64,000 nt of DNA, from positions 325,001 to 389,000 of the forward strand of contig NZ_AP028031.1 of the NCBI RefSeq assembly GCF_030296915.1. The letters run 5' to 3'. The notes under the pieces were generated by a model, which worked only from the letters and a program-made list of their open reading frames with translations, did not search any database and was not told the DNA's origin. This document shows positions 924-50,143 of this stretch, one piece after another. Within the stretch, counting starts at the first letter, position 1; each line of letters opens with the position of its first letter. This DNA is from Anaerostipes hadrus ATCC 29173 = JCM 17467 (lineage in GTDB: Bacteria > Bacillota > Clostridia > Lachnospirales > Lachnospiraceae). The position numbers and the translations under genes were made by a program.

Positions 924-1000
924 AATAAAAAGACCGCTCAATAAAATGAGCGGTTACTTTTCTGAAAAGAGAGGATTAAAAAATATATATGAAAAACTAT
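924..1000 (-). ncRNA. Small RNA family, copy A
   Basis: This is a predicted ~77 nt transcript on the minus strand, starting about 7 bases beyond the -10 box at 1007-1012. The first ~37 nt are nearly identical to those of the copies at 2613-2689, 10834-10918 and 50070-50143, and include an unpaired UCCUCUCUUU stretch (complement at 965-975). It ends in a hairpin (933-940 with 947-954, loop ATAAAA) followed by a U-rich tail. There is no ORF or start codon with a ribosome-binding site inside. That it is a trans-acting sRNA is inferred from the repeated promoter, seed and terminator design; transcription is not demonstrated. Confidence 0.6.
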
Positions 1001-1006
1001 GTCTTA

Positions 1007-1071
1007 AGTATACCAAAATCCTCGAAGCATTCAATATACAAAGTATGAACAATTCTAAAGAAAGTATAAAC
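1007..1071 (-). promoter_or_regulatory. Regulated promoter of sRNA copy A
   Basis: On the minus strand the order is GTTTAT (1066-1071), GTTCAT (1045-1050), -35 TTGAAT (1029-1034), a 16 bp spacer and -10 TATACT (1007-1012). The two GTT boxes are 21 bp apart, which is the period of LytTR-family direct-repeat sites (GTTN[AG][TG] with a 12 bp gap). The same 65 bp layout recurs in three other places in the window. Confidence 0.65.
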
Positions 1072-1133
1072 AGTTCTAAAGAAATTGAATATATTCAAAC
1101 AAAACTTGTTTAAATGAAGTATAAATGATAAAA

Positions 1134-1197
1134 TAATAATAGATAAAATATTATCTATTATTATTAAAAATATGAGATTTTGGATAAAATATTATCT
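1134..1197. promoter_or_regulatory. Probable HipB-type operators
   Basis: Two copies of GATAAAATATTATC lie at 1142-1155 and 1183-1196, 41 bp (about four helical turns) apart, directly upstream of the hipB start. The first sits in a longer palindrome (1134-1163). Paired inverted repeats upstream of an XRE-HipA operon fit autorepression by the antitoxin; this is inferred from position and symmetry. Confidence 0.55.
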
Positions 1198-1216
1198 ATA
1201 AAATGAGGAGAAATAA

Positions 1217-1495
1217 ATGGAACAATTAGTATGGGAAACAGCAGAAGAATTAGATCAGAAACTTGCACAAAGAGTACGAAAGATCAGAAAACGGCGTTCT
1301 ATTTCTCAGATGAAATTAGCTTCTATGAGTGGTGTAAGTTATGGTTCGATCAAAAGGTTTGAGACAACAGGACAGATTTCATTAATTTCATTAACTAAGA
1401 TAGCAATGGCATTAGATATTGCAGATGAACTTCGAAATATTTTTACACAAGTGCCATATCGGAATATTCAGGAGGTTATCAATGAGCGAAACTAA
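1217..1495 (+). CDS. XRE-family HTH protein, HipB-like antitoxin
   Basis: A 92-residue protein with one helix-turn-helix domain of the Cro/C1 type at about residues 15-70 (RVRKIRKRRSISQMKLA followed by SGVSYGSIKRFETTG). It has a ribosome-binding site GAGGAG just before the ATG. Its 3' end overlaps the start of hipA by 14 bases, so the two are translationally coupled. By analogy with HipBA it should bind the operators at 1134-1197, repress the operon and neutralise the HipA-like kinase. It is longer than a minimal XRE domain; the C-terminal ~20 residues probably contact the toxin. Confidence 0.8.
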   Translation: MEQLVWETAEELDQKLAQRVRKIRKRRSISQMKLASMSGVSYGSIKRFETTGQISLISLTKIAMALDIADELRNIFTQVPYRNIQEVINERN

Positions 1496-2612
1496 AACGT
1501 TACAAGTTATGTATGATGAAAAGCTTGTGGGAACACTGGCTATGGCATCAGGGCATAAAGTTGCATTCCAGTATAGTGAGGAATGGTTAGAAGATGGTTT
1601 TTCAATCAGCCCATTTTCATTACCTTTAAAAAATCAAGTGTTTGTTCCGCAAAAGGATTATTTTGATGGCCTTTTCGGAGTATTTGCGGACAGTTTGCCA
1701 GATAACTGGGGAAGATTATTATTGAATCGATTATTGCGTGTACATAAACAGAATCCAGATAGATTAACTGTTTTGGACCGCTTAGAGATTGTTGGAAAGT
1801 CAGGAATGGGAGCAATTACCTATCATCCTGAGCGGACATTGGAACAAACAAATGGAAATACAAACCTGGATGAACTGGCAGAACAATGTCAGAAAATTCT
1901 CAATACAGAATATTCAGATAAACTAGATGAATTATATCGCCTTGGAGGAACCAGTGGTGGTGCAAGACCGAAGATCATGACGACAATCGATGAGGAAGAA
2001 TGGATCATAAAATTTCCAGCTCATGTAGATGGAAAAAATGCAGGGAAAATGGAATATGATTATTCATGTTGTGCGAAAAAAAGTGGGATTACAATGAGTG
2101 AAACAAGACTTTTTCCATCAGAACAGTGTGATGGTTATTTTGGAACGAAACGCTTTGATAGAAGAATAGACCAAACAGGAAAAAAAAGAATTCATATGTT
2201 AACTGCTGCAGCTCTTTTGGAATTGGACTTCGAGCAGCCAAGTCTTGATTATCATAGTTTAATGAAATTGACAAAGATATTAACAAGAGATAATACGGAG
2301 GATATTGAAAATATGTTTCGTAGAATGTGTTTTAACGTTTTTGCACATAATCGAGATGATCATTCAAAGAATTTCACATATTTATATGATGAAGAGAAAG
2401 ATAGTTGGCGACTAAGCCCAGCATATGATCTAACTTATAGCAGCACATATTATGGAGAACATACCACGACAGTTGACGGGAATGGACGTAATCCTGGAAG
2501 AAAGGAAATTTTAACAGTTGGAATTACGTCAGGGATGAAAAAAGAGGTATGTGTGGATATTATGGATCAGATAGAGAAATGTGTAAGAGATATGTTAGGA
2601 GAATATTTATGA
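1482..2612 (+). CDS. HipA-like serine/threonine kinase toxin
   Basis: The ATG at 1482 is chosen because GGAGG stands 6 bases before it and it gives the usual HipA start (MSETKTLQVMY...), for 376 residues. The frame is open further upstream, but that part overlaps hipB without a ribosome-binding site. HipA features are present: an N-terminal subdomain with ADSLPDNWGRLLL, a Gly-rich loop near LGGTSGGARPK, the ATP-binding Lys in WIIKFPA, the catalytic segment HNRDDHSKN and the metal-binding SPAYDL. In E. coli, HipA phosphorylates glutamyl-tRNA synthetase and causes growth arrest; the target here is unknown. The gene ends immediately before the second sRNA/direct-repeat copy, whose terminator hairpin also serves it. 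Confidence 0.85.
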   Translation: MSETKTLQVMYDEKLVGTLAMASGHKVAFQYSEEWLEDGFSISPFSLPLKNQVFVPQKDYFDGLFGVFADSLPDNWGRLLLNRLLRVHKQNPDRLTVLDRLEIVGKSGMGAITYHPERTLEQTNGNTNLDELAEQCQKILNTEYSDKLDELYRLGGTSGGARPKIMTTIDEEEWIIKFPAHVDGKNAGKMEYDYSCCAKKSGITMSETRLFPSEQCDGYFGTKRFDRRIDQTGKKRIHMLTAAALLELDFEQPSLDYHSLMKLTKILTRDNTEDIENMFRRMCFNVFAHNRDDHSKNFTYLYDEEKDSWRLSPAYDLTYSSTYYGEHTTTVDGNGRNPGRKEILTVGITSGMKKEVCVDIMDQIEKCVRDMLGEYL

Positions 2613-2689
2613 AATAAAAAGACCGCTCGATATAATGAGCGGTTACTTTTCTGAAAAGAGAGGATTAAAAAATATATATGAAAAACTAT
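2613..2689 (-). ncRNA. Small RNA family, copy B
   Basis: A minus-strand ~77 nt transcript is predicted, with the same 5' core as copy A and the terminator hairpin 2622-2628/2637-2643 (loop GATATAAT). The loop differs from copy A while the stem is kept, which argues for selection on the hairpin. It abuts the hipA stop codon, so the hairpin can terminate convergent transcription from both sides. Confidence 0.6.
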
Positions 2690-2695
2690 GTCTTA

Positions 2696-2760
2696 AGTAT
2701 AGCAAAATCCTTCCTTTATTCAATATATAAAGTATGAACAATTCTAAAGAAAGTATAAAC
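2696..2760 (-). promoter_or_regulatory. Regulated promoter of sRNA copy B
   Basis: Reading on the minus strand: GTTTAT (2755-2760), GTTCAT (2734-2739, 21 bp on), -35 TTGAAT (2718-2723), 16 bp spacer, -10 TATACT (2696-2701). The layout is identical in length to the other three copies (65 bp). Confidence 0.65.
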
Positions 2761-2791
2761 AGTTCTAAAGAAATTATTGTAAATGCCAGTT

Positions 2792-2834
2792 GATCCAGTA
2801 ATACAGATTCAAAACAAATCTGTATTACTGGATC
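2792..2834. terminator. Perfect 18 bp hairpin at the Nudix gene 3' end
   Basis: 2792-2809 pairs perfectly with 2817-2834 around the loop CAAAACA. The stop codon of the Nudix gene lies inside the stem. It separates the minus-strand nudix/hydG unit from the sRNA locus. Confidence 0.7.
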
Positions 2835-3418
2835 ATTTTCAAATTATAATACAAGATCTTCGCCGTAAGTCCCCATATGATACGGTCATCATATTCGTAG
2901 AATAAAACCTCATATTCCCCACGTGCCCAAGGGTACTCTTTTCCACCAGGTACTTTATCAAATGGAAAGTTATCTGTTGGATACATAGTCACTTTGTTAT
3001 AATAACATTTCGGTGGGGTGTTCTGAAAGAATGCTAATGGAACAGTGAAAATTTCAGAAACTTCATCATTACTATACTGACCATCATAATTTACTAATTC
3101 CCCAAGATAAGGATCGATCCGCAGACCAGCAGGAGATAAAAAGTAATCTAAAGGCCCATATAATTTAATATTAGATTCAGAAATCAGTAATTCTTCACAA
3201 GTTTCACGGATCGAAGTCTCCATGGATGTTTCATCATGTTCTCTCCGGCCGCCCGGGAAACAGATTTCCCCAGGCTGTTGTGAGAGTTTATTGGAACGGA
3301 CTTCAAATAGGATATGGTATCCATCATTTTTCTTGATCAGAGGGATCATAACGGCAGATACCTTGTCCTTTTCTTGTTCAATTCTTTTTGGAATTCGGGT
3401 GTTTAAGTGTTTGAACAT
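2825..3418 (-). CDS. Nudix hydrolase, CoA pyrophosphatase type
   Basis: A 197-residue protein with the Nudix signature (GGRREHDETSMETSIRETCEEL, about residues 57-78), which supplies the Mg2+-binding glutamates. Just before it is the CoA-specific element LSQQPGEICFPGGR seen in the NudL/YeaB subgroup. These enzymes split CoA or oxidised CoA into 4'-phosphopantetheine and 3',5'-ADP. It starts 9 bases after the hydG stop codon on the same strand, so the two are likely cotranscribed, although no metabolic link is evident. Substrate specificity is inferred from motifs only. Confidence 0.8.
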   Translation of the reverse strand: MFKHLNTRIPKRIEQEKDKVSAVMIPLIKKNDGYHILFEVRSNKLSQQPGEICFPGGRREHDETSMETSIRETCEELLISESNIKLYGPLDYFLSPAGLRIDPYLGELVNYDGQYSNDEVSEIFTVPLAFFQNTPPKCYYNKVTMYPTDNFPFDKVPGGKEYPWARGEYEVLFYEYDDRIIWGLTAKILYYNLKMIQ

Positions 3419-3427
3419 AAAAATCTC

Positions 3428-4846
3428 CTAGAATCTGAAATCACGTTTTCCTTCATGAATATTTTCGATATATTCGGTAGCTTTCTGCTTGACAACAGGA
3501 TTTGGGATCTTCTCAAGTTCCTGTTTGATCAATACCTCACCTTTGGCTTTGACTTCATCAGAAGCGTAATCCTCTAAGTATTCTTTTAAAGTCATTAAAG
3601 CATTTGGTGCACAGCAGTTTGCAATCTGACCGGATTTGACAAGAGTCATGAAACGATCACCAGTACGTCCTTCACGGTAACATGCTGTACAGAAACTTGG
3701 AATATGACCAAGATCCATCAGCCATCCGATGATCTCATCTAAGGTACGGTTATCATTTTTCTCAAACTGTGCAGAGTTATCTTCTGGTTTTTCTTTTTCA
3801 GCGTATCCACCGACACTTGTAGAAGAAGCACCACTGATCTGAGATACTCCGACTTTTAAGACACGTTCTCTTGATTCTTGTGTCTCACGAGTAGATACGA
3901 TGATTCCTGTATAAGGAACAGAAATACGAAGGATTGCAACGATCTTCTCAAAGATATCATCATTGATTGCATTTTCGAAATCGTCAGGATCGATATCGTC
4001 AGCAGGACGGATTCTTGGAACACTGATCGTATGAGGTCCAACACCGAATTTTGCTTCCAGATGTTCTGCATGCATTAACAGACCAGCAAAGTCATAACGA
4101 TACATATCAAGACCGAATAAAACACCGATACCAACATCATCGATACCAGCTGTCATCGCACGGTCCATAGCTTCTGTATGGTAAGCATAATCATGTTTTG
4201 GTCCTGTTGGATGAAGAACTTCATAATTGTCTTTGTGGTAGGTTTCCTGGAATAAAATATATGTTCCGATACCAACATCTTTTAATTTCTTATAATTTTC
4301 AACTGTTGTAGCAGCGATATTTACGTTTACACGACGGATCGCACCGTTTTTGTGTTTGATACTGTAAATTGTTTTAATGCTCTCTAATACATATTCAATT
4401 GGAATATTCACAGGATCTTCTCCTGTTTCAAGAGCCAGTCTCTTATGCCCCATATCCTGAAGAGCGATAACTTCTTTCTTGATCTCTTCCTGAGTTAATT
4501 TCTTTCTGCGGATATGTTTATTCTTATAATGATAAGGACAGTAAGTACATCCGTTGACACAATAGTTTGCAAGATATAATGGAGCAAACATAACGATACG
4601 ATTTCCATAGAATTCTTCCTTGATCTTGATCGCAAGATCAAAAACTTTCTGGATCAGTTCTTTATCTTCACATGCAAGAAGTACGGAAGCTTCTCTGTGG
4701 GAAATACCTTTTAATTTCTTTGCTTTTTCAATGATAGACAGGATCAGTTCCTTATTGTTTTTGTTGGCATCTGCATAAGCAAGTGTATCTTTGATCTCCT
4801 GGTCATCAATAAATTCTTCTGCGATACCGGATTCTGGTCTGTACAT
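3428..4846 (-). CDS. hydG: [FeFe]-hydrogenase H-cluster maturase HydG, tyrosine lyase
   Basis: A 472-residue radical-SAM enzyme. The SAM-cluster motif C-x3-C-x2-C is at C96, C100 and C103 (YCVNGCTYCPY). A second, C-terminal cluster site (CTACYREGR followed by NCC, around residues 385-415) distinguishes HydG from the shorter ThiH. HydG cleaves tyrosine to p-cresol and delivers an Fe(CO)2CN unit to the hydrogenase active-site assembly with HydE and HydF. Neither partner nor the hydrogenase is in this window. The start is supported by GGAGAAGGAG just upstream. A strong promoter and a structured RNA lie at 4924-5094 on the same strand, so its expression may be controlled there. Confidence 0.92.
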   Translation of the reverse strand: MYRPESGIAEEFIDDQEIKDTLAYADANKNNKELILSIIEKAKKLKGISHREASVLLACEDKELIQKVFDLAIKIKEEFYGNRIVMFAPLYLANYCVNGCTYCPYHYKNKHIRRKKLTQEEIKKEVIALQDMGHKRLALETGEDPVNIPIEYVLESIKTIYSIKHKNGAIRRVNVNIAATTVENYKKLKDVGIGTYILFQETYHKDNYEVLHPTGPKHDYAYHTEAMDRAMTAGIDDVGIGVLFGLDMYRYDFAGLLMHAEHLEAKFGVGPHTISVPRIRPADDIDPDDFENAINDDIFEKIVAILRISVPYTGIIVSTRETQESRERVLKVGVSQISGASSTSVGGYAEKEKPEDNSAQFEKNDNRTLDEIIGWLMDLGHIPSFCTACYREGRTGDRFMTLVKSGQIANCCAPNALMTLKEYLEDYASDEVKAKGEVLIKQELEKIPNPVVKQKATEYIENIHEGKRDFRF

Positions 4847-4923
4847 AGTTTTCTCCTTCTCCTAAATTAGTTAATACGTAATATTTTTATTGCATAGGAG
4901 ATTTTATCGATATTTTCTATGCA

Positions 4924-5060
4924 ATAAAAAAGCATATTCGGAAATGAATATGCCAGATAGTCGAATAAAAAAGTACGTAAGATCCCCAAGGGAACAGGTA
5001 CTTTGTAAGCTCAATCTTGGCATCAGGAAATCCTTGGCTTCAGAATGAATATGCACTTAT
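4924..5060 (-). ncRNA. Structured ~137 nt RNA upstream of hydG
   Basis: On the minus strand a strong promoter (-35 TTGACT 5089-5094, -10 TATAAT 5067-5072, 16 bp spacer) starts an RNA near 5060. It ends in a clear terminator (GCATATTC pairing with GAATATGC at 4932-4953, then UUUUUU). The terminator's 3' half can instead pair with an earlier identical GCATATTC near the 5' end, which would close the whole molecule. Inside are a UGAAGCC/GGC-AUA-UUCA helix, a GUAC-closed hairpin with UCCC/GGGA, and two CCAAG boxes that could compete for one CUUGG. It could be a 6S-like free RNA or a terminator-type leader controlling hydG. No known riboswitch consensus was recognised. Confidence 0.5.
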
Positions 5061-5066
5061 ATATTC

Positions 5067-5094
5067 ATTATAAATAAATGAGACAAAAAGTCAA
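5067..5094 (-). promoter_or_regulatory. Promoter of the hydG-upstream RNA
   Basis: -35 TTGACT (5089-5094), 16 bp spacer, perfect -10 TATAAT (5067-5072) on the minus strand. This is one of the best vegetative promoters in the window, out of keeping with a weakly needed maturase and more typical of an abundant RNA. Confidence 0.65.
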
Positions 5095-5121
5095 TGAAAG
5101 AAAAAAAGAGAACGATTAAGA

Positions 5122-5150
5122 TTGTGTTTCTAAGCGTTTCATTGTATACT
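5122..5150 (+). promoter_or_regulatory. Promoter of the GGDEF/EAL gene
   Basis: -35 TTGTGT (5122-5127), 17 bp spacer, -10 TATACT (5145-5150), ending 44 bp before the ATG at 5195. It is divergent from the hydG-side promoter. Confidence 0.5.
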
Positions 5151-5194
5151 TTTGGTAATGGGAAATAGCAATACTACGGGAGAAATAATAGGAT

Positions 5195-8014
5195 ATGGAA
5201 ACACTGCAAGTTAACAGAAAAAAAATAGAGAAACTGTCAACAGTTTTAAATAATTCTCGGATTAAGATATTTGAATATCTTGTGGATGAAGATACACTTG
5301 TAGTTTATAATAATAAATTTCATATCGAGAAAACGATAGCTGGATACATGGACTATATAGACAACAAAAGCAAGATTCATCCAGAAGACCGAGAAAAGAT
5401 AAAGCAGATTTATAAGGAAGCAAAAGAAGCAACGGTAGAGATCCGTGAGTTTGGGGAGGATGGGGATATTAAACATTCAGTACTCGAGTTTACGAAGATC
5501 GTGAATGAAGATGGAAAGCTGACCTTGATAGGAAGTACAAGGGATATCACAGAACAAAGAAAACAAGAGAAGAAGCTCAAAGAAAGAGCGAGAAAAGACT
5601 CTTTGACAGGGCTTTATAATCAGGTATATGGGAAAAAATGTATCAACAAATATCTGAATCGGAAGAAGCCTTTTGATTCGTGTGGAATGATCGTATTAGA
5701 CGTGGATTGTTTTAAATTGGTGAATGACAATTATGGCCATTTATTTGGAGATAAAGTTCTAGCCCGTTTGGCGATGCTGTTGAAAGAAGTATTTAGAGAT
5801 AACGATAGTATTTTAATGAGAGCTGGCGGGGATGAATTCGTTATTTTTGTAAAAGATATCTTGAACGTTGAGTTGGTTAGGAAGAATGTGGAGCTGATGC
5901 AGAAGATCAGGGATCTTCAATTCGGGAAGACAGGTTATACGATCACATGTAGTGCAGGATGTTGTTATCTTCCAGAGAATGTATCAGGTTATACCTATGA
6001 CCAACTGTTTGAGAATGCGGACATTGCCTTATATAAAGCAAAAGAGCGAGGAAAGAACTGTTATGTTTACTGTGACAGCCTGCAGCATTTTTCATCCATG
6101 ATCGCTGAACAAGAGAAACAGGAAGAGATGTTGGAAGCAAGATATTTTCAGAATGATATTGTTGCTACAGCTTTTGAAATCTTCGAGAAAACCAACAATT
6201 TTGAGGTGGCGATATATTTATTACTGAAAGTGATTGGAGTTCGTCTGGAACTTGATCGTATCACGATCGTGCAGACAGATATCAAGGATCGAGAGATATA
6301 TTCTGATTATCAATGGAACAGAGAAGGAATTCCGAAGGTTTTAGAGACGGTCAGACATTTTGATAAAGAGGATTTTCTCACAGTATTTAATGATTTTGAT
6401 GAGAATGGGGTGCTTGTTTTACAGCATGATCATATGCAACGATATTCCGAATCAGCAACGAAGATCCTGATACAGGGAGAGGCAAAGACAATCGTATGTG
6501 TTGCAATGTATTGTGAAGGACGCTATACGGGAGCGATCACATATGCTGTGTGTAAGGAGAAGAGAAGCTGGTCAAACGAGATGTTGAAGCAGTTATCCGA
6601 AGTAACGAAGATCATCTCCGCACATTTTGCCAAGAATCAGGTGATGAATCATGTCTATCAGGGAGCGATCACACGAATGGAGCATGATATGCTGACAGGT
6701 TTGATCTCATTTGGAAGATTTCATGAGGAAGTGGAACGTATCATTCTTGCAAATAAGACAAGTGATTACATGATGATATATACGGATTTTGAAAATTTCA
6801 AATATTTTAATTATAAGTATGGATATACTCTAGGAGATCAGGTATTAAAGGATTTTTGCAGTTTCATTATTGGAAAAACAGAAGAAAAACATAATCTGTA
6901 CTTTACAAGAGTTGTATCGGATCAGTTTTTAATGTTTCGTACAGCTAGCCATGAGAAGGATGAATATCAAGCGATCATTGAAGAAACAGAAAAGATCAAT
7001 GAAGAATTTATGCTGCGGCAGGAGGAGAAGTTCCCAAAATCCAACGTGGTATTGAGAACAGGAATCTATTATGTGACACCAGAATGCAGGAGCACTTCCT
7101 ATGCGATCGATGCGGCAAACTATGTGAGACAGAAAGTGAAAGGTGGAGAAAAAGGCAGCGTAAGATTTTATGACGATGAGATGCAGAAACAACGTGAGTT
7201 GGAAAATGAGATCGTCAATGATATGAAGGAAGCGATGGAACAAAAACAGTTCAAAGTATATTTTCAGCCCCAATATTCCATAAAAAGTCATGAGATCATA
7301 GGTGCGGAAGCATTGGTGCGCTGGGAGAGAGATAACGGAACCGTTTTAAGTCCCAATGCATTTATTCCAGTTTATGAAAATAATGGAAAGATCATAGAAC
7401 TTGACTTCTATGTCTTTGAGACAGTTGTAGAATTCATTGCAGAGAATCTAAAAGCAGGAAGAGAACAGGTGCCGATATCGATCAATGCATCTAGTCTCCA
7501 TGCATCTGATCCGCAGACGATCAACACTTATATAAATATTTTGAAGAAATATAGTGTTGATCCAACAATGGTTGAGATTGAACTTACTGAGACAGCAGTT
7601 GTGTTTGAATATGAAAGTGTTAGAAAATTATTTGACTCTTTTCAGTTACATGGGATTAAGACAGCGATGGATGATTTTGGAAGCGGATATTCTGTCCTGA
7701 ATACGATCGTTGATATCCCAGTTGATGTGATCAAGATCGATCGAGGATTTATTACCAGCTGCTTAGAAACAGACCGTGGAATCTATTTCCTGAAACATTT
7801 GATCGATATGATTCGGAATCTAGGATATCAGATAATCTGTGAAGGTGTAGAAACAGATGAGCAGATTGAAATATTAAGACAGATCGGCTGCGATGAGATT
7901 CAGGGATATTGGTATTCGAAGCCATTGAAGATGGAAGACTACAAAGAACTTCTCCAGACGGAAAAAATTTCCAAGGGGGGGGGGCAAAACACCCAAACAG
8001 GAAAAAAATCCTAA
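5195..8014 (+). CDS. PAS-GGDEF-GAF-like-GGDEF(degenerate)-EAL c-di-GMP turnover protein
   Basis: A 939-residue soluble protein without membrane segments. A PAS-like sensor (about residues 20-120, ending GSTRDITEQ) leads into a GGDEF domain with an intact active site G211-G-D-E-F215; RDND just upstream resembles a product-inhibition site. A GAF-like region (about 310-470) is followed by a second GGDEF-type domain whose signature has become VVSDQ, so it is probably non-catalytic. The C-terminal EAL domain keeps E705-A-L, ELTETA, the metal-binding D826-D827 in DDFGSGYS and EGVE, so it should be an active phosphodiesterase. Having both activities suggests signal-controlled switching. A run of ten G near 7975-7984 encodes part of the short tail after the EAL domain. 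The G tract is prone to slippage. Confidence 0.88.
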   Translation: METLQVNRKKIEKLSTVLNNSRIKIFEYLVDEDTLVVYNNKFHIEKTIAGYMDYIDNKSKIHPEDREKIKQIYKEAKEATVEIREFGEDGDIKHSVLEFTKIVNEDGKLTLIGSTRDITEQRKQEKKLKERARKDSLTGLYNQVYGKKCINKYLNRKKPFDSCGMIVLDVDCFKLVNDNYGHLFGDKVLARLAMLLKEVFRDNDSILMRAGGDEFVIFVKDILNVELVRKNVELMQKIRDLQFGKTGYTITCSAGCCYLPENVSGYTYDQLFENADIALYKAKERGKNCYVYCDSLQHFSSMIAEQEKQEEMLEARYFQNDIVATAFEIFEKTNNFEVAIYLLLKVIGVRLELDRITIVQTDIKDREIYSDYQWNREGIPKVLETVRHFDKEDFLTVFNDFDENGVLVLQHDHMQRYSESATKILIQGEAKTIVCVAMYCEGRYTGAITYAVCKEKRSWSNEMLKQLSEVTKIISAHFAKNQVMNHVYQGAITRMEHDMLTGLISFGRFHEEVERIILANKTSDYMMIYTDFENFKYFNYKYGYTLGDQVLKDFCSFIIGKTEEKHNLYFTRVVSDQFLMFRTASHEKDEYQAIIEETEKINEEFMLRQEEKFPKSNVVLRTGIYYVTPECRSTSYAIDAANYVRQKVKGGEKGSVRFYDDEMQKQRELENEIVNDMKEAMEQKQFKVYFQPQYSIKSHEIIGAEALVRWERDNGTVLSPNAFIPVYENNGKIIELDFYVFETVVEFIAENLKAGREQVPISINASSLHASDPQTINTYINILKKYSVDPTMVEIELTETAVVFEYESVRKLFDSFQLHGIKTAMDDFGSGYSVLNTIVDIPVDVIKIDRGFITSCLETDRGIYFLKHLIDMIRNLGYQIICEGVETDEQIEILRQIGCDEIQGYWYSKPLKMEDYKELLQTEKISKGGGQNTQTGKKS
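7975..7984 (+). other. G10 homopolymer in the 3' end of the c-di-GMP gene
   Basis: Ten consecutive G in an AT-rich genome, inside the coding sequence 30 bases before the stop. Loss of one G shifts to a stop 14 bases past the present one. Gain of one G would carry the frame through the intergenic gap to a TGA overlapping the queF start (8059-8061). Such tracts are classical slippage sites. Confidence 0.7.
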
Positions 8015-8040
8015 GATATACTTTAGGCAATGAAAATTTG

Positions 8041-8050: not shown

Positions 8051-8057
8051 AAATACA

Positions 8058-8555: not shown

Positions 8556-8584
8556 GTGATCACATACGAAAAGGAGGAAAAAGT

Positions 8585-9529: not shown

Positions 9530-9540
9530 GGAGATGTAAT

Positions 9541-10762: not shown

Positions 10763-10827
10763 GTTTATACTTTCTTTAGAAATGTTTAGAAACAGAATAT
10801 TGAATGAAGAGAGGATCCTGATATAAT
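10763..10827 (+). promoter_or_regulatory. Regulated promoter of sRNA copy C
   Basis: GTTTAT (10763-10768), GTTTAG (10784-10789, 21 bp on), -35 TTGAAT (10800-10805), 16 bp spacer, consensus -10 TATAAT (10822-10827). Same 65 bp layout as the other copies, here on the plus strand. Confidence 0.65.
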
Positions 10828-10833
10828 AAAGAC

Positions 10834-10918
10834 ATAGTTTTTCATATATATTTTTAATCCTCTCTTTTTGAAAATAAGTACCGTATCAGCCGAGATGTTG
10901 ATGCGGTATTATTTCGTT
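10834..10918 (+). ncRNA. Small RNA family, copy C
   Basis: A plus-strand transcript starting near 10834 with the shared 5' core (ACATAG, A/U-rich stretch, AAUCCUCUCUUUU at about 10856-10868). Its terminator is unrelated in sequence to copies A/B: 10879-10888 pairs with 10899-10908 (10 bp, one G-U). The U tail is interrupted (TTATTTCGTTTT), so termination may be less efficient. Confidence 0.6.
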
Positions 10919-42097: not shown

Positions 42098-42108
42098 GGA
42101 GTGATCAT

Positions 42109-42894: not shown

Positions 42895-43496
42895 TGAAAA
42901 AGACATTGATTCTTTTAGCTGGATATCCAGGAACTGGAAAAAGTTATATGGCAAATATCATTATTAAAAACTTTCCAGAATTAAGATTATTGTCACCAGA
43001 TGATATAAAAGAAAAATTTTGGGATAAATATGGGTTTGATACTTTAGAACAAAAAGAAGAATTAATTGTGAGAGCATGGAACACATACTATGATGAAATG
43101 GAACAAGATTTTTTACATGGGAAAAGTTTGATTTCTGATTATCCTTTTAGCTTAAAACAAAAACCAACATTGGAAAAGTTGACAAAACAATATGGATATC
43201 AGGTATGTACGATTCGTCTTATTGGACAGATTGAAGTTTTATTTGAAAGACAAAAACAAAGAGATTTGGATGATTCCAGACATTTAGGGCATATTTTAAC
43301 AAGTTACCATAGATCAGATAGTAAAATAGAACGTAAAAATGCGGACAACCTTTTAGATTATACAGAATTTTATAAAAGATGTACGCAAAGAGGTTATGGC
43401 GAATTTGATTTGGGAGATACGATAGAAGTAGATGTCAGTGATTATGAGAAAATTGAATATCCAAAGATACTACAGTGGTTAGAAGACAGAGTGTGA
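42894..43496 (+). CDS. P-loop kinase-like protein of unknown substrate
   Basis: A 200-residue protein with a Walker A motif near its start (LILLAGYPGTGKSYMA), then LLSPDDIKEKFWDKYG and SLISDYPFSLKQKPTLEKL, the general plan of AAA_33/zeta-toxin/gluconate-kinase-like nucleotide kinases. The ATG overlaps the stop of the SDR (TAATG), so it is translated with the PTS operon. It may phosphorylate an operon intermediate or a nucleotide; nothing in the sequence decides. It is not a usual member of sorbose operons. Confidence 0.7.
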   Translation: MKKTLILLAGYPGTGKSYMANIIIKNFPELRLLSPDDIKEKFWDKYGFDTLEQKEELIVRAWNTYYDEMEQDFLHGKSLISDYPFSLKQKPTLEKLTKQYGYQVCTIRLIGQIEVLFERQKQRDLDDSRHLGHILTSYHRSDSKIERKNADNLLDYTEFYKRCTQRGYGEFDLGDTIEVDVSDYEKIEYPKILQWLEDRV

Positions 43497-43499
43497 AAA

Positions 43500-43530
43500 A
43501 ACAGGGGAATTTTAATTCTCCTGTTTTTTG
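43500..43530 (+). terminator. Terminator of the PTS operon
   Basis: AACAGGGGAATT (43500-43511) pairs with AATTCTCCTGTT (43514-43525), then T4. Confidence 0.85.
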
Positions 43531-43637
43531 CTTCATTTAATCTCTCTATAATGGATTCTTTGTTGTGAGTAAATATAAAACAAGTTATAATAAAAAGGAA
43601 ACATTGGTCGTAAGGCAAAATTAATAGGAGGATCCGA

Positions 43638-45317
43638 ATGAATCAAACATTAAAGCTGCCAGTTGGAATTGAGAATTTTGAAGATATTCGCAAGCTAGGA
43701 TTTTATTATATAGATAAGACAAAATTAATTGAACAGCTCTTACAAAATTGGGGAAAAGTAAATCTGTTTACACGACCACGTCGTTTTGGAAAGACACTCA
43801 ATATGAGTATGTTACGTACTTTTTTTGAAATTGGTATAGATAAATCACTTTTTGAAGGCCTATATATTTCTAAAAATAAAGAATTATGTGATGAATATAT
43901 GGGTAAGTATCCAGTAATCTTTCTGTCATTGAAAGGAATCGATGGATTAACTTTTGAAGAAGCGATTATTCGGATTACAACGGTTATTAAAAATGAAGCA
44001 CGAAGACACCATTATCTAAAAAATAGTGATAAATTAATAGAAGAAGAGATTAAGCAATTTCAGAGCCTTTTAGATGGAAAAGCTGATGATATAACAGATA
44101 GTATCAGACTATTATCAGAACTTTTGTGCAAACATTATGGGAAAAAGACGATTATCCTTATTGATGAATATGATGTTCCGCTAGATAAAGCTTTTCAGAA
44201 AGGCTATTATGATGAAATGGTTGAACTTATGAGAGGTCTTTTGGGGCAAGTACTAAAAACAAATGATTTTCTACAATTTGCAGTTTTGACAGGATGTCTT
44301 AGAATTTCGAAAGAAAGCATTTTCACCGGACTTAATAATTTTGAAGTTTTATCTATTCTCAATGTTCAGTATGATGAATGTTTTGGATTTACCGATACAG
44401 AAGTGAAAAAGATTCTTAGCGATTATAATTTATCAGATCATTACCTTCAGATTAGGGAGTGGTATGATGGTTATCGTTTCGGAAATACAGATATCTATTG
44501 CCCATGGGATGTGATTCGTTATTGTAAAAGTCTATGTGCGGATCCCGATGCATTACCAGAAGATTTTTGGTCTAATTCTAGTGGAAATGAAATTGTTCGC
44601 AGATTTATAGATAAGGCAGATATTCAGACAAAGAATGAGATTGAGCGTTTGATCAGTGGAGAGTGTATTGAAAAGGAAATTGTAGAGGAGCTTACCTATA
44701 ATGAGTTGGATAAGAGTATAGAAAATTTGTGGAGTGTGCTTTTTACAACAGGATATCTAACACAACAGGGACGAACTCAAAATGGTAAATATCTTTTGTC
44801 GATACCAAATACAGAGATAAGAAATCTATTTACAAAAAAGATCAAAGAATGGTTTAGTGATGTTTCAAAAAATGATGGAAAAACACTAGAAATATTTTGT
44901 AATGCGTTTATAGAGAAAAAACCAGAAAAAATTGAACAGCTTTTTGGAGATTATCTATGGAATACGATCAGTATAAGAGATACAGCAATCGCAAAAGAGA
45001 AGAAAGAAAATTTTTATCACGGAATTTTACTCGGTCTTCTTGGATATAAGTCAAGCTGGCTGATAAAGTCAAATGCAGAATCAGGAATCGGATACAGTGA
45101 TATTCTGATAGAGGCTCCGGAGAATCGAACGGGAATCGTCATTGAATTAAAGTATGCCGAAGATGGAAATATGGATGCAGCGTGCAAGCAGGCTTTAAAA
45201 CAGATTGAAGATAAAGACTATATTGCTAAATTGAAGCAAGATGGAATGCGAAATTTCATTAAATATGGTGTTGCTTGTTATAAGAAAGACTGTAAAGTCA
45301 TGATTTATGAAGAATAA
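43638..45317 (+). CDS. AAA-like ATPase with C-terminal PD-(D/E)XK domain (DUF1703 family)
   Basis: A 559-residue protein of the AAA-ATPase-like/DUF1703 family, very abundant in gut Clostridia and Bacteroidetes. The N-terminus is LPVGIENFEDIRKLGFYYIDKTKLI, followed by a Walker A variant RPRRFGKTLNMSMLRTFF and Walker B KTIILIDEYDVPLD. The C-terminal ~100 residues have the nuclease core (GYSDILIEAPENRTGIVIELKYAED). The cellular role is unknown; a defence or mobile-element origin has been suggested by its patchy distribution. Codon use is more AT-rich than that of the ribosomal genes. It lies next to two decayed genes, so the region is accessory. Confidence 0.8.
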   Translation: MNQTLKLPVGIENFEDIRKLGFYYIDKTKLIEQLLQNWGKVNLFTRPRRFGKTLNMSMLRTFFEIGIDKSLFEGLYISKNKELCDEYMGKYPVIFLSLKGIDGLTFEEAIIRITTVIKNEARRHHYLKNSDKLIEEEIKQFQSLLDGKADDITDSIRLLSELLCKHYGKKTIILIDEYDVPLDKAFQKGYYDEMVELMRGLLGQVLKTNDFLQFAVLTGCLRISKESIFTGLNNFEVLSILNVQYDECFGFTDTEVKKILSDYNLSDHYLQIREWYDGYRFGNTDIYCPWDVIRYCKSLCADPDALPEDFWSNSSGNEIVRRFIDKADIQTKNEIERLISGECIEKEIVEELTYNELDKSIENLWSVLFTTGYLTQQGRTQNGKYLLSIPNTEIRNLFTKKIKEWFSDVSKNDGKTLEIFCNAFIEKKPEKIEQLFGDYLWNTISIRDTAIAKEKKENFYHGILLGLLGYKSSWLIKSNAESGIGYSDILIEAPENRTGIVIELKYAEDGNMDAACKQALKQIEDKDYIAKLKQDGMRNFIKYGVACYKKDCKVMIYEE

Positions 45318-45345
45318 AAAACAACTGATGATGGGAGATATAAAT

Positions 45346-46124
45346 ATGGGGAAAGAAACATTTGAAGGAAAAAAACTCATTGCACGATAGGAATAATTGG
45401 ACATCGAGGTCATGGAAAAACGACTTTAACAGATGCAATTAAAAAAACTCTTACAACAAGAGAAGAGAGAAATATAAGCTTGACATCTAGCATTGAATAT
45501 GGAGCTATCCTAGTAGTATCTGCAATAGATGGAATCATGTCACAAACAGCAGAACAGATCATGATTGCTCATCATATGGGAATGCAACATATCGTAGTAT
45601 TTATGAATAAATGTGATATGGTAGATGATATGGAAATGCTGGAATTGGTAGAAATGGAGATTCGTGACCAACTATATCAGTGTGGATTTGTTGGATCTGA
45701 TATTCCGTTTATCTATGGATCTGCTTTAAAAGCCCTTGAAGGTCCAGATGGAGAATGGGGAGATAAGATCATGGAATTGATGGATGCGGTGGATAAATAT
45801 ATTCCAGATTCACAGTCTGAAATAGATCAAGCTTCCTCTATACATACAAAGTTTACAGCAGAAGTATACATGTTAGATATCAATGAAGGTGGACGAGACA
45901 CAGGATACTTTGATGATGACCGTCTGCAGTTTTATTTCAAAACGACAGATGTAACAGGAGAGATTCAATTGCCAATAGAAATAGATATGGCTATGCCAGG
46001 GGAAACACTGGATATAACAATTGAATTAATTCAACCAATTAAGATAACAGAAGAAGAACCTTTTATCATTCGTGATGATGAATGTACGGTTGGATTGGGA
46101 AGAGTTGCTACGATCATCGAGTAA
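45346..46124 (+). pseudogene. EF-Tu pseudogene
   Basis: The start MGKETFEGK runs into a frameshift at an A7 run (near 45369); restoring one A gives KKTHCTIGIIGHRGHGKTTLTDAI, parallel to tuf. Compared with the intact tuf at 34843-36036 it lacks about 20 residues after the first helix, about 30 residues including the G3 motif DCPGH, and most of domain II (about 85 residues between YIPD and HTKFTA). G1 has changed to GHRGHGKT. G4 NKCD and domain III to GRVATIIE remain, and the match continues a few bases past the stop. Divergence is large, so the duplication is old. The 215-codon open tail (from 45480) probably has no EF-Tu function. Confidence 0.88.
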
Positions 46125-46193
46125 TTCTTACACTATTCTTCATGGAGTAGTGTAAAAAAAGTAAAAATCAAAAAATAAATATCAGATCAAATA

Positions 46194-46236
46194 AAAATAG
46201 TGTCAAGATCAATAAAAATCTTGGCACTATTTTACG
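46194..46236. terminator. Bidirectional terminator
   Basis: AAAATAGTGTCAAGAT (46194-46209) pairs with 46218-46233 with one mismatch. It lies between the tuf relic and the convergent XRE gene. Confidence 0.75.
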
Positions 46237-46266
46237 TTAGAAAAATCTATCGTATTTTGCAATCAA

Positions 46267-46614
46267 TCAATTTTTAATATAAGGAACCATCACTTCCAGA
46301 ATCTCAAGCACATGATCTCTCTGTGATGGATTAAGTTCAGCTGCAATTTCCATCAATTGATTATTGTGATGAGCCGGGGTATCAACATCAAATATTCTTT
46401 GCCCATCACCAAATAAAAGATAATCAGCAGATACATCCAATGCAGTAGTAAGAGAAGCAAAACTATGAATAGACATGGCTTTGCGTCCAGCTTCGATTTC
46501 ATAGATATAATGCTGACTGACACCAGCTTTTTCAGCAAGCATTTCCTGTGTCAGATCTTGCCCTTTTCGGGTAAGTTTGATGCGTTTTCCTAATTCTTTT
46601 AAATCGATTTTCAT
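46267..46614 (-). CDS. XRE-family transcriptional regulator
   Basis: A 115-residue protein with an N-terminal HTH (DLKELGKRIKLTRKGQDLTQEMLAEKAGVSQHYIYEIEAGRKAMSIHSFASLTTAL) and a helical C-terminal part that probably dimerises (NQLMEIAAELNPSQRDHVLEILEVMVPY). The layout is common in Lachnospiraceae regulators. It is divergent from the DUF5688 gene. A hairpin in the gap (CCACTATC/GATAGTGG, 46660-46681) may be its operator. Confidence 0.8.
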   Translation of the reverse strand: MKIDLKELGKRIKLTRKGQDLTQEMLAEKAGVSQHYIYEIEAGRKAMSIHSFASLTTALDVSADYLLFGDGQRIFDVDTPAHHNNQLMEIAAELNPSQRDHVLEILEVMVPYIKN

Positions 46615-46759
46615 AAAATACCTCCATAAAAAATAGTATTACCAGGAGTTATGAAAAACCACTATCCAACAGTGATAGTGGCAACTATAAATATTGCTGA
46701 CAGCAACATTGAATGTTATGATAGATAGGAAAATGAGAAAAAACGAGAAAGAAGGAGTT

Positions 46760-47326
46760 ATGCAGAGAGAAAACGAGCGTATTATCTATCATTTGATGCA
46801 TTTTGATGAGAAGGATAAGGAGTGGAGTGAGAGACCATATTTACTCTTGGAAGATATGGCAATTGTTTTTGATATTCTTGATCTGGATGATCGATCCATA
46901 CAAAGAATCGATCATAAAAAGGCAAACAAAGAACAATGGTCGGATCAGTTTTTATGGGAGAGTGCAAAGAAGAATACAAAACAGTTTCTGCCTGCTAAAT
47001 TTGAGCCTGTATATAAAGATTTTCGAGGACATACCGAAGACAGACCGGTATTTATGGTGTCAAACAAAATACAGAGATATGGAGCAGGTGTGATTTGCTA
47101 TGAAGATTTTCTAGGCGACATTTCAAGAAAATATAATAAGAGTTTGTATCTTCTGCCAACCAGTATTCATGAAATGTTATTACTGTTTGATGACGGAGAA
47201 GATCAGGAAGAGGATCTATTGCATATACTAGAGAAGTCTGATCAGCAATTAAGCAAAGAAGAATTTCTGTCCGATAATATCTATTATTATGACAAATATA
47301 TGGGAGAGTTGATCAGTTTATTTTAA
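46760..47326 (+). CDS. DUF5688-family protein (short form)
   Basis: A 188-residue protein from the ATG at 46760 (MQRENERIIYHLMHFDEKDKEW), supported by GAAGGAG; the frame is open 22 codons further up without a ribosome-binding site. The C-terminal half has family-like blocks: RPVFMVSNKIQRYGAGVICYEDFLGDISRKYNKSLYLLPTSIHEMLLLFDD and SDNIYYYDKYMGELISLF. Longer members have an extra N-terminal region of over 100 residues, so this is a short version. Function is unknown; the family is nearly restricted to Lachnospiraceae and tends to be multicopy and accessory. Confidence 0.65.
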   Translation: MQRENERIIYHLMHFDEKDKEWSERPYLLLEDMAIVFDILDLDDRSIQRIDHKKANKEQWSDQFLWESAKKNTKQFLPAKFEPVYKDFRGHTEDRPVFMVSNKIQRYGAGVICYEDFLGDISRKYNKSLYLLPTSIHEMLLLFDDGEDQEEDLLHILEKSDQQLSKEEFLSDNIYYYDKYMGELISLF

Positions 47327-47394
47327 TGTTGAAGTTTTGGTACGAATAACGTATGATAAAGAAAACTGACCAAACAAAGAAAGGGGTAGAGCTT

Positions 47395-47949
47395 ATGATA
47401 CCAGGGATCGTAATCGGAGTGATCGTGCTTGTCATTGTGATATGGCTGATCAGTTCCTACAATGGATTTGTAACATTAAGAAATAAGACAGAAGAGGCAT
47501 TTTCAGCAATCGATGTGTCATTAAAGAAGCGTTACGACTTGATTCCAAACTATGTAGAAACCGTCAAAGGTTATGCGAAACACGAATCAGAGACATTAGA
47601 GAAAGTCGTAGCCGCAAGAAATCAGGCGATGACAGCGACAAATATCGATGATAAGATCAAACAGGAAAATGCACTGTCAGGAGCACTGAAATCTTTATTT
47701 GCAGTGTCTGAAAGCTATCCAGAATTAAAAGCTAATGAGAACTTTAATAAATTGCAGGATCAGCTTCAGAGATTAGAAGAAGAGATCGCAGGTTCCAGAA
47801 GATATTATAATGGAGTTGTAAACCGCTATAATACCAAGACAGAATTATTCCCAGGCAATATCATCGCAGGAATTTTTGGATTTAAGAGAAAACCATTATT
47901 TGAAGTTTCGAATGAATCTGAGCGTGAGAATGTACAAGTAAAATTCTAA
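47395..47949 (+). CDS. LemA family protein
   Basis: A 184-residue protein from the ATG at 47395 after AAAGGGG; an upstream ATG at 47353 would add 14 polar residues before the membrane helix. One N-terminal transmembrane segment (GIVIGVIVLVIVIWLISSYNGFV) is followed by the LemA helical domain (YDLIPNYVETVKGYAKHESETLEKVVAARNQA, ... RRYYNGVVNRYNTKTELFPGNIIAGIFGFKRKPLFEV). Function is not firmly known. It is paired with the DUF2207 gene 23 bases downstream, a widespread association. Confidence 0.9.
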   Translation: MIPGIVIGVIVLVIVIWLISSYNGFVTLRNKTEEAFSAIDVSLKKRYDLIPNYVETVKGYAKHESETLEKVVAARNQAMTATNIDDKIKQENALSGALKSLFAVSESYPELKANENFNKLQDQLQRLEEEIAGSRRYYNGVVNRYNTKTELFPGNIIAGIFGFKRKPLFEVSNESERENVQVKF

Positions 47950-47972
47950 GGAACGGACAGGGGGAAAGCACT

Positions 47973-49904
47973 ATGAGAAAGTGGATCACCTGTACCATAA
48001 TGGCAGTCATGATGGCTGCCATGATTTTTATGGGGACAGGAAACAATGTGTTTGCAAATGATGAAGTCACTTATGACTCTAATATGCAGACAAAGAAATT
48101 TGATGTAGATGTCAAAGTCGGAGAAGATGGAAGTTATACAGTAACAGAGAATATCAAAGTCAAGTTTGTCAATCCGAGGCATGGAATTTATCGTTATATC
48201 CCATACAAAGGGAAGGTGATAACAAGCGATAAAAATGGAGATCAGAAAAAACTACTTTATTATGCGGATTTTACACTGTTATCAAATGACAGTAAGACAG
48301 ATGTAGATGAAGATTCTGACGGTAATAGTCAGGTATTGAGGTTTGGTTCTGCGGATTATACCGTAAGTAAAGGAAACTATAGATTTACGTATCAACTGAT
48401 CCCTAAATATCAGGGAGATACCTACGATTATTTGTACTACAATATTTTCCCGACACTTTGGAGAAATAAGATTCCAGAAGGAAGTACTTTTACAATTCAT
48501 TTTCCAAAGAAAACAGATCTTAAGGGCGTAAATTTCTATTATGGACGTTATGGGGAATCAAAGTATGCAAAAGATGTGATCACTTTGAAATATGATGAGG
48601 AGAAGAACCAGATCCAAGGAACATTAAAGAAGACACTGCCATTTAAAAATGGATTGACATGCTATAGTGATCTGGGTGATGGGTATTTTACAGCAAAACA
48701 TGAAATCGGAGTAGATCGATGGATTTTTGGACTATCAATAGGAATTCTTGTGATCACAGCTGCCTTATTTGTTTTGTTCGGACGTGATGAAAAGATCATC
48801 CCATCGATTCAATATCAGCCGCCAGAAGGAATGGACAGTGCAGTTGTCGGATATGTTCTGGACGGTTCTGTGGATGATAAGGATGTTATTTCTTTGATCC
48901 TTTATTGGGCCGATAAGGGCTACCTGAAGATGAAGGAAAAAGGTCAAAAGGACATGGAATTTATCAAACTCAAAGATATTCCAGACTCAGAACCAAGATA
49001 TCAGAAAACAATGTTTGAAGCTTTATTTAAGAACAGAAAAAAAGTGAAAGCTTCTTCTTTACAGTACAAATTTGCAGATACCGTGCAGGTAGTGAAAGAT
49101 GATATCAAATATGATTATAAGAAAAATATTTATGCAACATCCTCGAAAGTTGCAAGGATCGTATCCTTTGTATTGTTGCAGCTTCCAATCTGTTTATTTG
49201 CATTTATTATGATGATATTTAGTCCAGATGGGATCTTAAATCTGATCCTTCCATTGATGGCGTGGGTATTGTATTTTATAGGAATGTTTCTTGCATGTCA
49301 CAGTGTAGATAAATGGTATGCGATTTCAAAGGGAGCAAGAACGGGACTTCCGATCGCATCGGCAGTATTGTCTATTCTTGGATTTATTTTCTATGGATTA
49401 TATTATTATGTGAAGATACAAAGAGGAGAATTATTTGATTTCTTCCATGTGTATCTTGTGATCGTTGCAGTATCATTTATCGGAGTGATCCTGACTGCAT
49501 TTATGAAGAAGAGAACCCATCAATGTGTGGAATGGATGGGATATCTAGCAGGACTTCGTGATTTTATTGAAACTGCGGAATTAGACCGAATGAAGGTATT
49601 GGCGAAAGATCATCCAGACATGTTTTATCATATTCTGCCTTATTCCATGGTATTTGGGTTGTTTGATCTTTATGCAAAGAAACTTGATGCATTAAAACTT
49701 CCTGCGCCAGACTGGTATGTCTATGGCGGCAGTGATCCTTATTTCCATTATTATATGATGGGGCACTACATGGATCATGTGGTCTCTGAGAACCTGACAG
49801 TTGTAGAACCATCAGAATCTGGAGGAGTTGGAGAATTCTTTTCTGGAGGAGATGGAGGATTCTCAGGAGGCGGCTTCGGAGGCGGAGGAGGCGGCAGTTG
49901 GTAG
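47973..49904 (+). CDS. DUF2207 domain membrane protein
   Basis: A 643-residue protein with a signal peptide (about residues 1-29, ending NVFAND). An extracellular DUF2207 domain follows (TVTENIKVKFVNPRHGIYRYIPYKGK, about 50-230), with a transmembrane helix near 250-270. Then come a cytoplasmic part, two or more helices around 395-445 and 460-515, and a Gly-rich end (SGGDGGFSGGGFGGGGGGSW). This is the usual architecture of the DUF2207/YciQ-like family that accompanies LemA. A role in envelope quality control is often supposed but not proven. Confidence 0.85.
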   Translation: MRKWITCTIMAVMMAAMIFMGTGNNVFANDEVTYDSNMQTKKFDVDVKVGEDGSYTVTENIKVKFVNPRHGIYRYIPYKGKVITSDKNGDQKKLLYYADFTLLSNDSKTDVDEDSDGNSQVLRFGSADYTVSKGNYRFTYQLIPKYQGDTYDYLYYNIFPTLWRNKIPEGSTFTIHFPKKTDLKGVNFYYGRYGESKYAKDVITLKYDEEKNQIQGTLKKTLPFKNGLTCYSDLGDGYFTAKHEIGVDRWIFGLSIGILVITAALFVLFGRDEKIIPSIQYQPPEGMDSAVVGYVLDGSVDDKDVISLILYWADKGYLKMKEKGQKDMEFIKLKDIPDSEPRYQKTMFEALFKNRKKVKASSLQYKFADTVQVVKDDIKYDYKKNIYATSSKVARIVSFVLLQLPICLFAFIMMIFSPDGILNLILPLMAWVLYFIGMFLACHSVDKWYAISKGARTGLPIASAVLSILGFIFYGLYYYVKIQRGELFDFFHVYLVIVAVSFIGVILTAFMKKRTHQCVEWMGYLAGLRDFIETAELDRMKVLAKDHPDMFYHILPYSMVFGLFDLYAKKLDALKLPAPDWYVYGGSDPYFHYYMMGHYMDHVVSENLTVVEPSESGGVGEFFSGGDGGFSGGGFGGGGGGSW

Positions 49905-49908
49905 ACCG

Positions 49909-50000
49909 CTTCATATAAACTATCTGGTGATGCGCTCTCGCTCGGATTCGCGCGTAGCGGACACTAAATCCGACTGTGGATAATTTTCTCTTTATAGAAG
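49909..50000. repeat. Imperfect palindrome before sRNA copy D
   Basis: CTTCATATAAA near 49909-49919 is complementary to TTTATAGAAG (49991-50000) with a bulge. Inner pairs include CTATC/GATA and CGGATT/AATCCG. The right arm overlaps the first GTT box of the sRNA promoter. The GC-rich apex resembles that of palindrome II at 30.4 kb. Confidence 0.45.
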
Positions 50001-50064
50001 TTTATATTTTCTTTAGAATTGTTTAGATTTAGAATATTGAATGGAGTGGGGATTTTGGTATACT
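50000..50064 (+). promoter_or_regulatory. Regulated promoter of sRNA copy D
   Basis: GTTTAT (50000-50005), GTTTAG (50021-50026, 21 bp on), -35 TTGAAT (50037-50042), 16 bp spacer, -10 TATACT (50059-50064). 65 bp, as in the other copies. Confidence 0.65.
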
Positions 50065-50069
50065 TAAGA

Positions 50070-50143
50070 CATAGTTTTTCATATATATTTTAATCCTCTC
50101 TTTTCATTAGATTGGGCTGCATAGAAGCAGCCCATTTTTTATT
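50070..50143 (+). ncRNA. Small RNA family, copy D
   Basis: A plus-strand transcript from about 50070 with the shared core (ACATAGTTTTTC, then A/U-rich, then AAUCCUCUCUUUU at about 50092-50104). It ends in the strongest terminator of the family: GGGCTGC (50114-50120) pairs with GCAGCCC (50127-50133), loop ATAGAA, tail ATTTTTT. It lies between the DUF2207 gene and the IS607 relic. Confidence 0.65.

Follow-up and report, generated by a model that had tools for sequence, protein, structure and literature searches.

What is the short unit that recurs four times in one part of the Anaerostipes hadrus ATCC 29173 chromosome, and what might it do? The window, i.e., the whole stretch of 64,000 nucleotides analysed here, covers positions 325001-389000 of a 2.80-Mb genome in one contig, and the original prediction, made from its letters alone, placed in it four dispersed copies of one regulated small RNA (sRNA) gene. 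The units, here A to D, lie where they had been placed: at 924-1071 (minus strand), 2613-2760 (minus), 10763-10918 (plus) and 50000-50143 (plus). Judged from sequence, they belong to a real, ordered, multicopy gene family with a dedicated-looking promoter, which would most likely work like the CiaR-dependent small RNAs (csRNAs) of streptococci without being csRNAs.

The promoter of each unit measures 65 bp from the first GTTTAT through the end of the -10 and consists, as predicted, of two GTT boxes at a distance of 21 bp, then 10 bp, TTGAAT, 16 bp and a -10 (TATACT in A, B and D; TATAAT in C). The two-box layout stood as to both boxes and their distance, but it had missed a third repeat between them, TTTAGA, so that the true spacing is 11 + 10 bp; in unit A a further TTTAGAAC lies directly upstream of the triple repeat. 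The near-invariant RNA of ~37 nt was found as a block of 36-38 nt, ACATAGTTTTTCATATATAT(T)nAATCCTCTCTTTT, 4 nt past the -10. A hairpin and a T-rich tail follow it in all four units, the stem being common to A and B and unrelated in C and D; the T-run of C is weak (ATTATTTCGTTTT). The features are, in window positions:

1044..1070, minus strand: unit A, triple repeat TTTATA-N5-TTTAGA-N4-TTCATA
1007..1034, minus strand: unit A, -35 TTGAAT, 16 bp, -10 TATACT
965..1002, minus strand: unit A, conserved RNA core (predicted start site about 4-8 nt past the -10)
927..954, minus strand: unit A, terminator hairpin and T-run (sequence reading and fold)
2733..2759, minus strand: unit B, triple repeat TTTATA-N5-TTTAGA-N4-TTCATA
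2696..2723, minus strand: unit B, -35 TTGAAT, 16 bp, -10 TATACT
2654..2691, minus strand: unit B, conserved RNA core
2616..2643, minus strand: unit B, terminator hairpin and T-run, stem as in A (sequence reading and fold)
10764..10790, plus strand: unit C, triple repeat TTTATA-N5-TTTAGA-N4-TTTAGA
10800..10827, plus strand: unit C, -35 TTGAAT, 16 bp, -10 TATAAT
10832..10868, plus strand: unit C, conserved RNA core
10878..10914, plus strand: unit C, hairpin and weak T-rich tail, unrelated to A, B and D (sequence reading and fold)
50001..50027, plus strand: unit D, triple repeat TTTATA-N5-TTTAGA-N4-TTTAGA
50037..50064, plus strand: unit D, -35 TTGAAT, 16 bp, -10 TATACT
50069..50104, plus strand: unit D, conserved RNA core
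50112..50140, plus strand: unit D, terminator hairpin and T-run (sequence reading and fold)

The spacer between -35 and -10 is partly conserved too (GGATTYTG). At 1013-1028, 2702-2717, 10806-10821 and 50043-50058 it contains a GAGGATTYTG-like stretch that is partly complementary to AATCCTCTC of the core, with a perfect AAGAGAGGAT in unit C; this stretch is not transcribed.

Does the unit recur outside the window? Layout and core were sought in the genome and in relatives, and both recur there. The four copies are real, but the count was too low: the genome has six, the others being a complete copy E to the left of the window at a distance of about 1 kb (genome 323941-324096) and a copy F, 150 kb away, whose core and boxes span genome 173998-174170 with about 60 nt inserted between start and core. 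BLAST of copy B against the genome returned A, E, D and C at E values of 2.5e-67, 1.5e-49, 6.7e-31 and 4.4e-26 respectively. The family occurs in 11/11 Anaerostipes genomes, where reading of the stretches around matches gave 63 copies, 2-9 per genome: nine in G010, seven in G005, six each in G000, G001, G002, G004, G008 and G009, five in G007, four in G003 and two in G006 (G000 is the window's own genome, other G numbers are compared genomes, and L numbers fetched stretches). Contig ends cut off the promoter of G005:C42:43159 and the terminator of G002:C31, both among the 63; the count leaves out one more promoter, which lies at the G005:C33 edge. Both core blocks, TTTTTCATATA and, after 4-10 nt, AATCCTCTCTTTT, are present in 63/63 copies, as is TAATCCTCTCTTTT; GTTTTTCATATA is present in 59/63. 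A control pattern for the core had 0 matches in the 11 genomes, which puts the family far from chance. Moreover, orthologous neighbours are retained around copies across species. Extra sequence between 5' end and core makes eight of the 63 copies long forms (of ten candidates, one was a cut copy and another a mis-anchored short one). At two orthologous loci G008 has the short and the long form where G004 and G009 have the long and the short (L166-L173, L142-L145), a swap that suggests exchange of sequence between copies.

Outside the genus, BLAST with copy B (matches in 11/11 genus genomes, 8 candidates scored per genome) hit 3/87 others, over 23-27 bp; the unit is absent there, and these marginal matches were rejected as family members. 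The exact pattern retrieved 35 stretches from 84,980 species genomes (a survey that may omit the window's own genome), 32 from Anaerostipes and 3 from 'Lachnospiraceae bacterium S14_Bin3'. The restriction to Anaerostipes read from this pattern was overturned by a sequence profile built from 23 units and run over 299 Lachnospiraceae genomes with strict filters. G231, from another genus, has four copies (E 3.4e-20 to 3.9e-9), two short and two long, the latter with an insert able to form a stem. One of them, like a G009 copy, has a queF-like gene on one side and a uvrC-like gene on the other (queF was named by Pfam from the copy in the window); thus this locus predates the split. Weaker, diverged copies were found in G210 (two by profile and a third in tandem by pattern) and G228. 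The G139 match is doubtful, five other weak matches (L304-L308) when read did not resemble the unit, and the remaining profile rows at E 0.003-0.01, checked with the core pattern only, held nothing convincing. In G210 and G228 a hairpin follows a core of the form GAGCTTTTCA(T/A)A...TTTGAATCCTCTC, which can itself pair there; the diverged relatives in other genera retain CAU(AUAU) and AAUCCUCUC, and the rest has changed. A clear triple repeat is absent from the promoter at G210:C88 and G228, at least. These diverged cores stand behind promoters with ACACAATT-type repeats and not the triple box (L333 7046, 7383; L302 1528), as if promoter control had changed.

Which parts of the unit are conserved? 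A logo built on 25 promoter clusters places TTTA[T/G]A at positions -74, -63 and -53 relative to the core (spacings of 11 and 10 bp), together with a faint fourth repeat near -84, ATTGWAT, the spacer GGATTYTG, TATACT and AAGACATAG. The general plan is three TTTA[T/G]A repeats, 9 bp, a weak -35, usually 16 bp, and TATACT or TATAAT. Among 23 representatives, mean information per column was 0.28 bits far upstream, 1.23 in the boxes, 0.49 in the spacer and 1.64 over the 16 columns preceding the core, and the two core blocks each reached 2.00; it then fell to 0.56, 0.12, 0.09, 0.27 and 0.28 per 10-nt step (random floor 0.14), i.e., to background 10-20 nt past the core. This is the profile of a promoter-plus-seed unit with free terminators, as had been proposed, and not of a repeat with conserved ends.

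The box was also searched for alone (triple repeat with up to 2 mismatches, core not required) in the 11 genomes. The core lay downstream on the same strand of 60 of the 68 matches, at 67-69 nt in 53 cases and at 98-131 nt in seven (long forms). Of the eight remaining matches, a contig end truncates one, and the other seven, all with 2 mismatches, are no more than the 13 matches of the reversed pattern. No box match was obtained for three of the 63 copies: a short form, a long form and one truncated by a contig end. At this stringency there was no sign of the box serving another gene, weaker boxes not having been sought, and its regulon looks dedicated to the sRNA copies.

What RNA would such a unit produce? 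Among 53 short members 49 were folded (unit C is one of the four outside this set); the core was fully unpaired in 34/49 and at least 75% unpaired in 43/49. Predicted short RNAs are 62-112 nt long, omitting four of the 49 that were cut before the hairpin. With 62 nt past the core included, part of the core in A and C pairs with sequence beyond the terminator; with the fold cut at the T-run, the core is unpaired in A, B and D and partly paired in C, whose A/U linker is able to pair with sequence directly 3' of the core. Each copy has its own terminator, and the stems vary. In two sets of orthologous-locus terminators, two-sided changes occur in 2/9 stem pairs (3 sequences) and 3/9 pairs (4 sequences), compared with 0 and no more than 1 when the partners are slid; the samples are small, the covariation score being reached by 24/500 shuffles in both. 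Several copies, from different genera, have TTTCATAGGAA(AT) directly past the terminator (window 50140-50155; L133, L324, L325, L331), which may be a tail that the family's terminators generally share. Rfam 15 does not include the family: at E<=1 the window matched only an L10 leader, a TPP riboswitch and RAGATH-18, none of them in the units. In a 421-base stretch of G007 the best sense-strand scores were those of GcvB (24.0 bits, cut-off 42, E 0.0024) and RsaOG (24.0 bits, cut-off 50, E 0.14), and nothing relevant passed the cut-off in a G210 stretch.

Similar promoters and seeds, separate terminators and several loci together mark sibling sRNA genes, and the multicopy sRNA family that had been proposed is supported, the predictions that sequence could test having held. 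We consider it likely that the units are sibling genes of one trans-acting sRNA, with an anti-start/anti-Shine-Dalgarno seed and a replaceable terminator, which represses translation in the manner of csRNAs. An OmpR/PhoB-family response regulator would bind the repeats and switch the copies on together, and the resulting 60-110-nt transcripts would act additively. Of the two invariant blocks, UUUUUCAUAUA contains CAU (anti-AUG) and UAAUCCUCUCUUUU would act as an anti-Shine-Dalgarno towards sites like AAAAGAGAGGA; by pairing with several mRNAs where translation starts, both would keep ribosomes from entering, while the 4-10 nt linker looped out. The terminator would serve only to end the RNA, leaving its sequence to drift. 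A minority of long members carry an extra 5' segment with a stem ahead of the identical core.

The reverse complement of the core, AAAAGAGAGGAUUA...UAUAUGAAAAAC, is a miniature start site, and CAU and UCCUCUC are present in the core and mostly unpaired; start-region pairing and consensus fit lend this weak statistical support. Several observations weigh against the sibling-sRNA model: i) six of the 49 folded cores were less than 75% unpaired; ii) pairing with start regions (all 101 from stretches of G000 and 250 of 685 from other genomes, 60 shuffles) beat shuffled cores by only 1.1-1.2 kcal/mol and was equalled by 5/60 shuffles in G000 and 3/60 in the other genomes; iii) among 2000 shuffles, 117 (short linker) or 285 (G000 linker) matched the start-site consensus as well as the antisense core did; iv) AAAGAGAGGN{4,11}ATGA was not enriched, with five non-copy matches in this genome and six in G008 against 6 and 6 for the controls, and AGAGAGGATTN{4,20}ATGAAAAA had one non-copy match in 11 genomes; v) no regulator was pinned among the candidates examined (LytTR, PhoP, autoregulated OmpR-type, VanR/VanS-like). 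Across 786 start regions the lowest duplex energy, -28.3 kcal/mol, belongs to a LytTR regulator gene of this genome, in a stretch fetched on purpose, most genes being unscanned. The antisense model draws on the design of the unit and on what the diverged relatives retain.

Could the core bind protein instead of mRNA? An RNA whose unpaired core titrates an RNA-binding protein, with copy number setting the dose and CAU and the CU tract not acting as antisense, would suit two blocks conserved letter for letter as well as a seed does, and would agree with the lack of enrichment of exact target sites; it also has a precedent in GacAS with RsmY/RsmZ, a two-component system acting only via titrating sRNAs according to the source consulted (PMC4132741). 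The variable 4-10 nt linker and the retention of CAU and the CU tract in diverged relatives are better suited to two pairing blocks, and we judge titration unlikely. The gene might also lie on the opposite strand. That the units hold no open reading frame was true of the RNA strand in the window, but on the other strand a frame (MKNYVLSIPK...) begins within the core with ATGAAAAA and stands behind an AGAGAGG ribosome site in 63/63 copies. A short peptide as the product is nevertheless highly improbable: the frame's length is not kept (3 to 41 codons, 19 in 33 copies), it runs through a promoter whose spacer length changes in some copies, and the terminators face the other way.

Equally implausible is a mobile or repeat element, such as a miniature inverted-repeat transposable element (MITE) or a repetitive extragenic palindrome (REP), that happens to carry a promoter, although copies are numerous, dispersed and sometimes tandem, and A and B flank a HipBA pair. 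Conservation extending equally into the flanks, as in a transposable repeat, was looked for and found to end after the core; neighbours are orthologous across species, terminators are unrelated, and the units had no match in IMG/VR, phage or plasmid collections. Conserved ends and non-orthologous insertion sites are both lacking (target-site duplications were not sought). Finally, the box might be bound by a LytTR-type (AgrA/ComE-like) regulator, which would make the units a peptide-signalling sRNA set. GTTN[AG][TG] repeated at 21 bp fits the LytTR consensus, and LytTR proteins occur in 11/11 genomes, some within 10 kb of copies. However, the middle repeat turns the box into an 11/10-bp array, and the two LytTR proteins of this genome share at most 32% identity with any of 54 compared (58 found), while the box is near-identical in 11 genomes. 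The idea, which had come from the 21-bp spacing, is disfavoured by the middle repeat and the lack of close relatives, and we regard it as very improbable.

If the units are sibling sRNA genes, which regulator would control them? Tandem repeats one helical turn apart are typical of winged-helix OmpR/PhoB-type proteins, and an activator of that type is suggested because the repeats here are so arranged. This genome has 14 OmpR-type domains. Autoregulation was rejected as a guide: none of the 14 OmpR-type genes here showed such a repeat array within its upstream 220 nt (some start codons were guessed). PhoP/PhoB is disfavoured, since the box matrix scores at most 0.0 at pstS, which has TTTACA/TTAACA repeats of its own, versus 27.7-37.1 at 20/23 sRNA promoters (the other three score low through a one-base shift). 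Upstream of pstS, at about 2187.2-2187.4 kb of G000 (L283), a long inverted repeat encloses GTGTCGGCAACC... and looks like a structured RNA or a small mobile element.

The most promising lead, a VanR/VanS-like pair, lies near copy E (gene at genome 319232), its response regulator matching NF033117 at 387.6 bits (cut-off 350) and its kinase NF033091 at 376.8, below the cut-off of 400. It has one orthologue (81-100%) in 11/11 genomes. Where pair and copy share a contig, as in eight genomes, they are 4-17 kb apart (the G005 copy being the truncated promoter); in G003, G004 and G006 the pair's contig has no known copy. Its regulator alone among the 14 has matches of at least 75% in more than one of 46 copy stretches (5/46), the genome-wide orthologue survey having covered this pair and not the other 13 regulators. 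Relatives at 54-69% in 23/87 other genomes weaken its candidacy, and synteny alone could explain the proximity; the pair is a weak candidate and rather unlikely to be the regulator. An OmpR-type response regulator gene in G231 (L328 6973-7857) starts about 180 bp past an sRNA core; it is 54% identical to one at genome 1647075 of G000 and is another possible lead.

How does the family compare with known sRNA systems? The comparison with csRNAs (RF02379) was apt in design (PMC3091779). As in the csRNAs described (PMC3091779, PMC8186281, PMC4507080), there are several sibling genes under what would be one regulator, direct repeats a helical turn apart, own terminators, putative, mostly unpaired anti-Shine-Dalgarno and anti-AUG (CAU) sequences, and members with and without a 5' stem-loop. 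The anti-Shine-Dalgarno and anti-AUG sequences of csRNAs lie in unpaired regions (PMC3091779), and csRNAs act additively on comC (PMC4507080). The CiaR repeat is NTTAAG-N5-TTTAAG, ten bases before the -10 (PMC3091779), whereas here a triple TTTA[T/G]A ends 9-10 bp before the -35. The seed here is near-identical in all copies, and there is mostly one hairpin in 62-112 nt, against 87-151 nt reported for S. pneumoniae csRNAs. CiaR is described as having 15 promoters, five of them for csRNAs, whereas the box here serves nothing else at the stringency used; and the host is a member of the Lachnospiraceae, not a streptococcus. RF02379 itself had no match at E<=1 in the window, and in the G007 stretch scored 17.7 bits on the opposite strand (cut-off 57, E 9).

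The five LhrC copies of Listeria (LhrC1-5) likewise have a CU-rich seed, answer to one two-component system (LisRK) and block translation, with UCCC motifs described in two loops and a single-stranded stretch (PMC4132741). The core here has a single unpaired UCCUCUC and no UCCC. RsmY and RsmZ sequester protein at repeated GGA sites, and the core lacks GGA. What they share with the arrangement proposed here is a two-component system, as GacA is said to act exclusively through these sRNAs (PMC4132741). More tentatively, and with the balance somewhat against it, a two-component regulator may have as its entire direct regulon the 2-9 copies of one anti-start-site RNA, its output being purely post-transcriptional and graded by copy number; csRNA-like logic would then have arisen independently in Lachnospiraceae.

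Around the units themselves, window 1217-2612 holds a HipB/HipA-like toxin-antitoxin pair with copy A on one side and the near-identical copy B on the other; the two copies may have flanked the pair when it arrived, or may stem from a duplication. Window 50731-51573, just past copy D, holds a TnpB/IS605 OrfB-like gene and, after it, a RAGATH-18 match at 51499-51573 that is perhaps the guide RNA region of that gene.

Anaerostipes is a butyrate-producing gut genus, and searches of the open-access literature, as far as its text could be seen, turned up no sRNA from it. The box and the seed are strict enough for regulator and targets to be findable by simple experiments, and the Lachnospiraceae relatives allow tracing of copy-number evolution, of the swap between short and long forms and of the change in promoter control. 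If the reading is true, this family would be a second, apparently unrelated design of the csRNA type, in which one regulator commands many sibling RNAs with an anti-initiation seed and disposable terminators.

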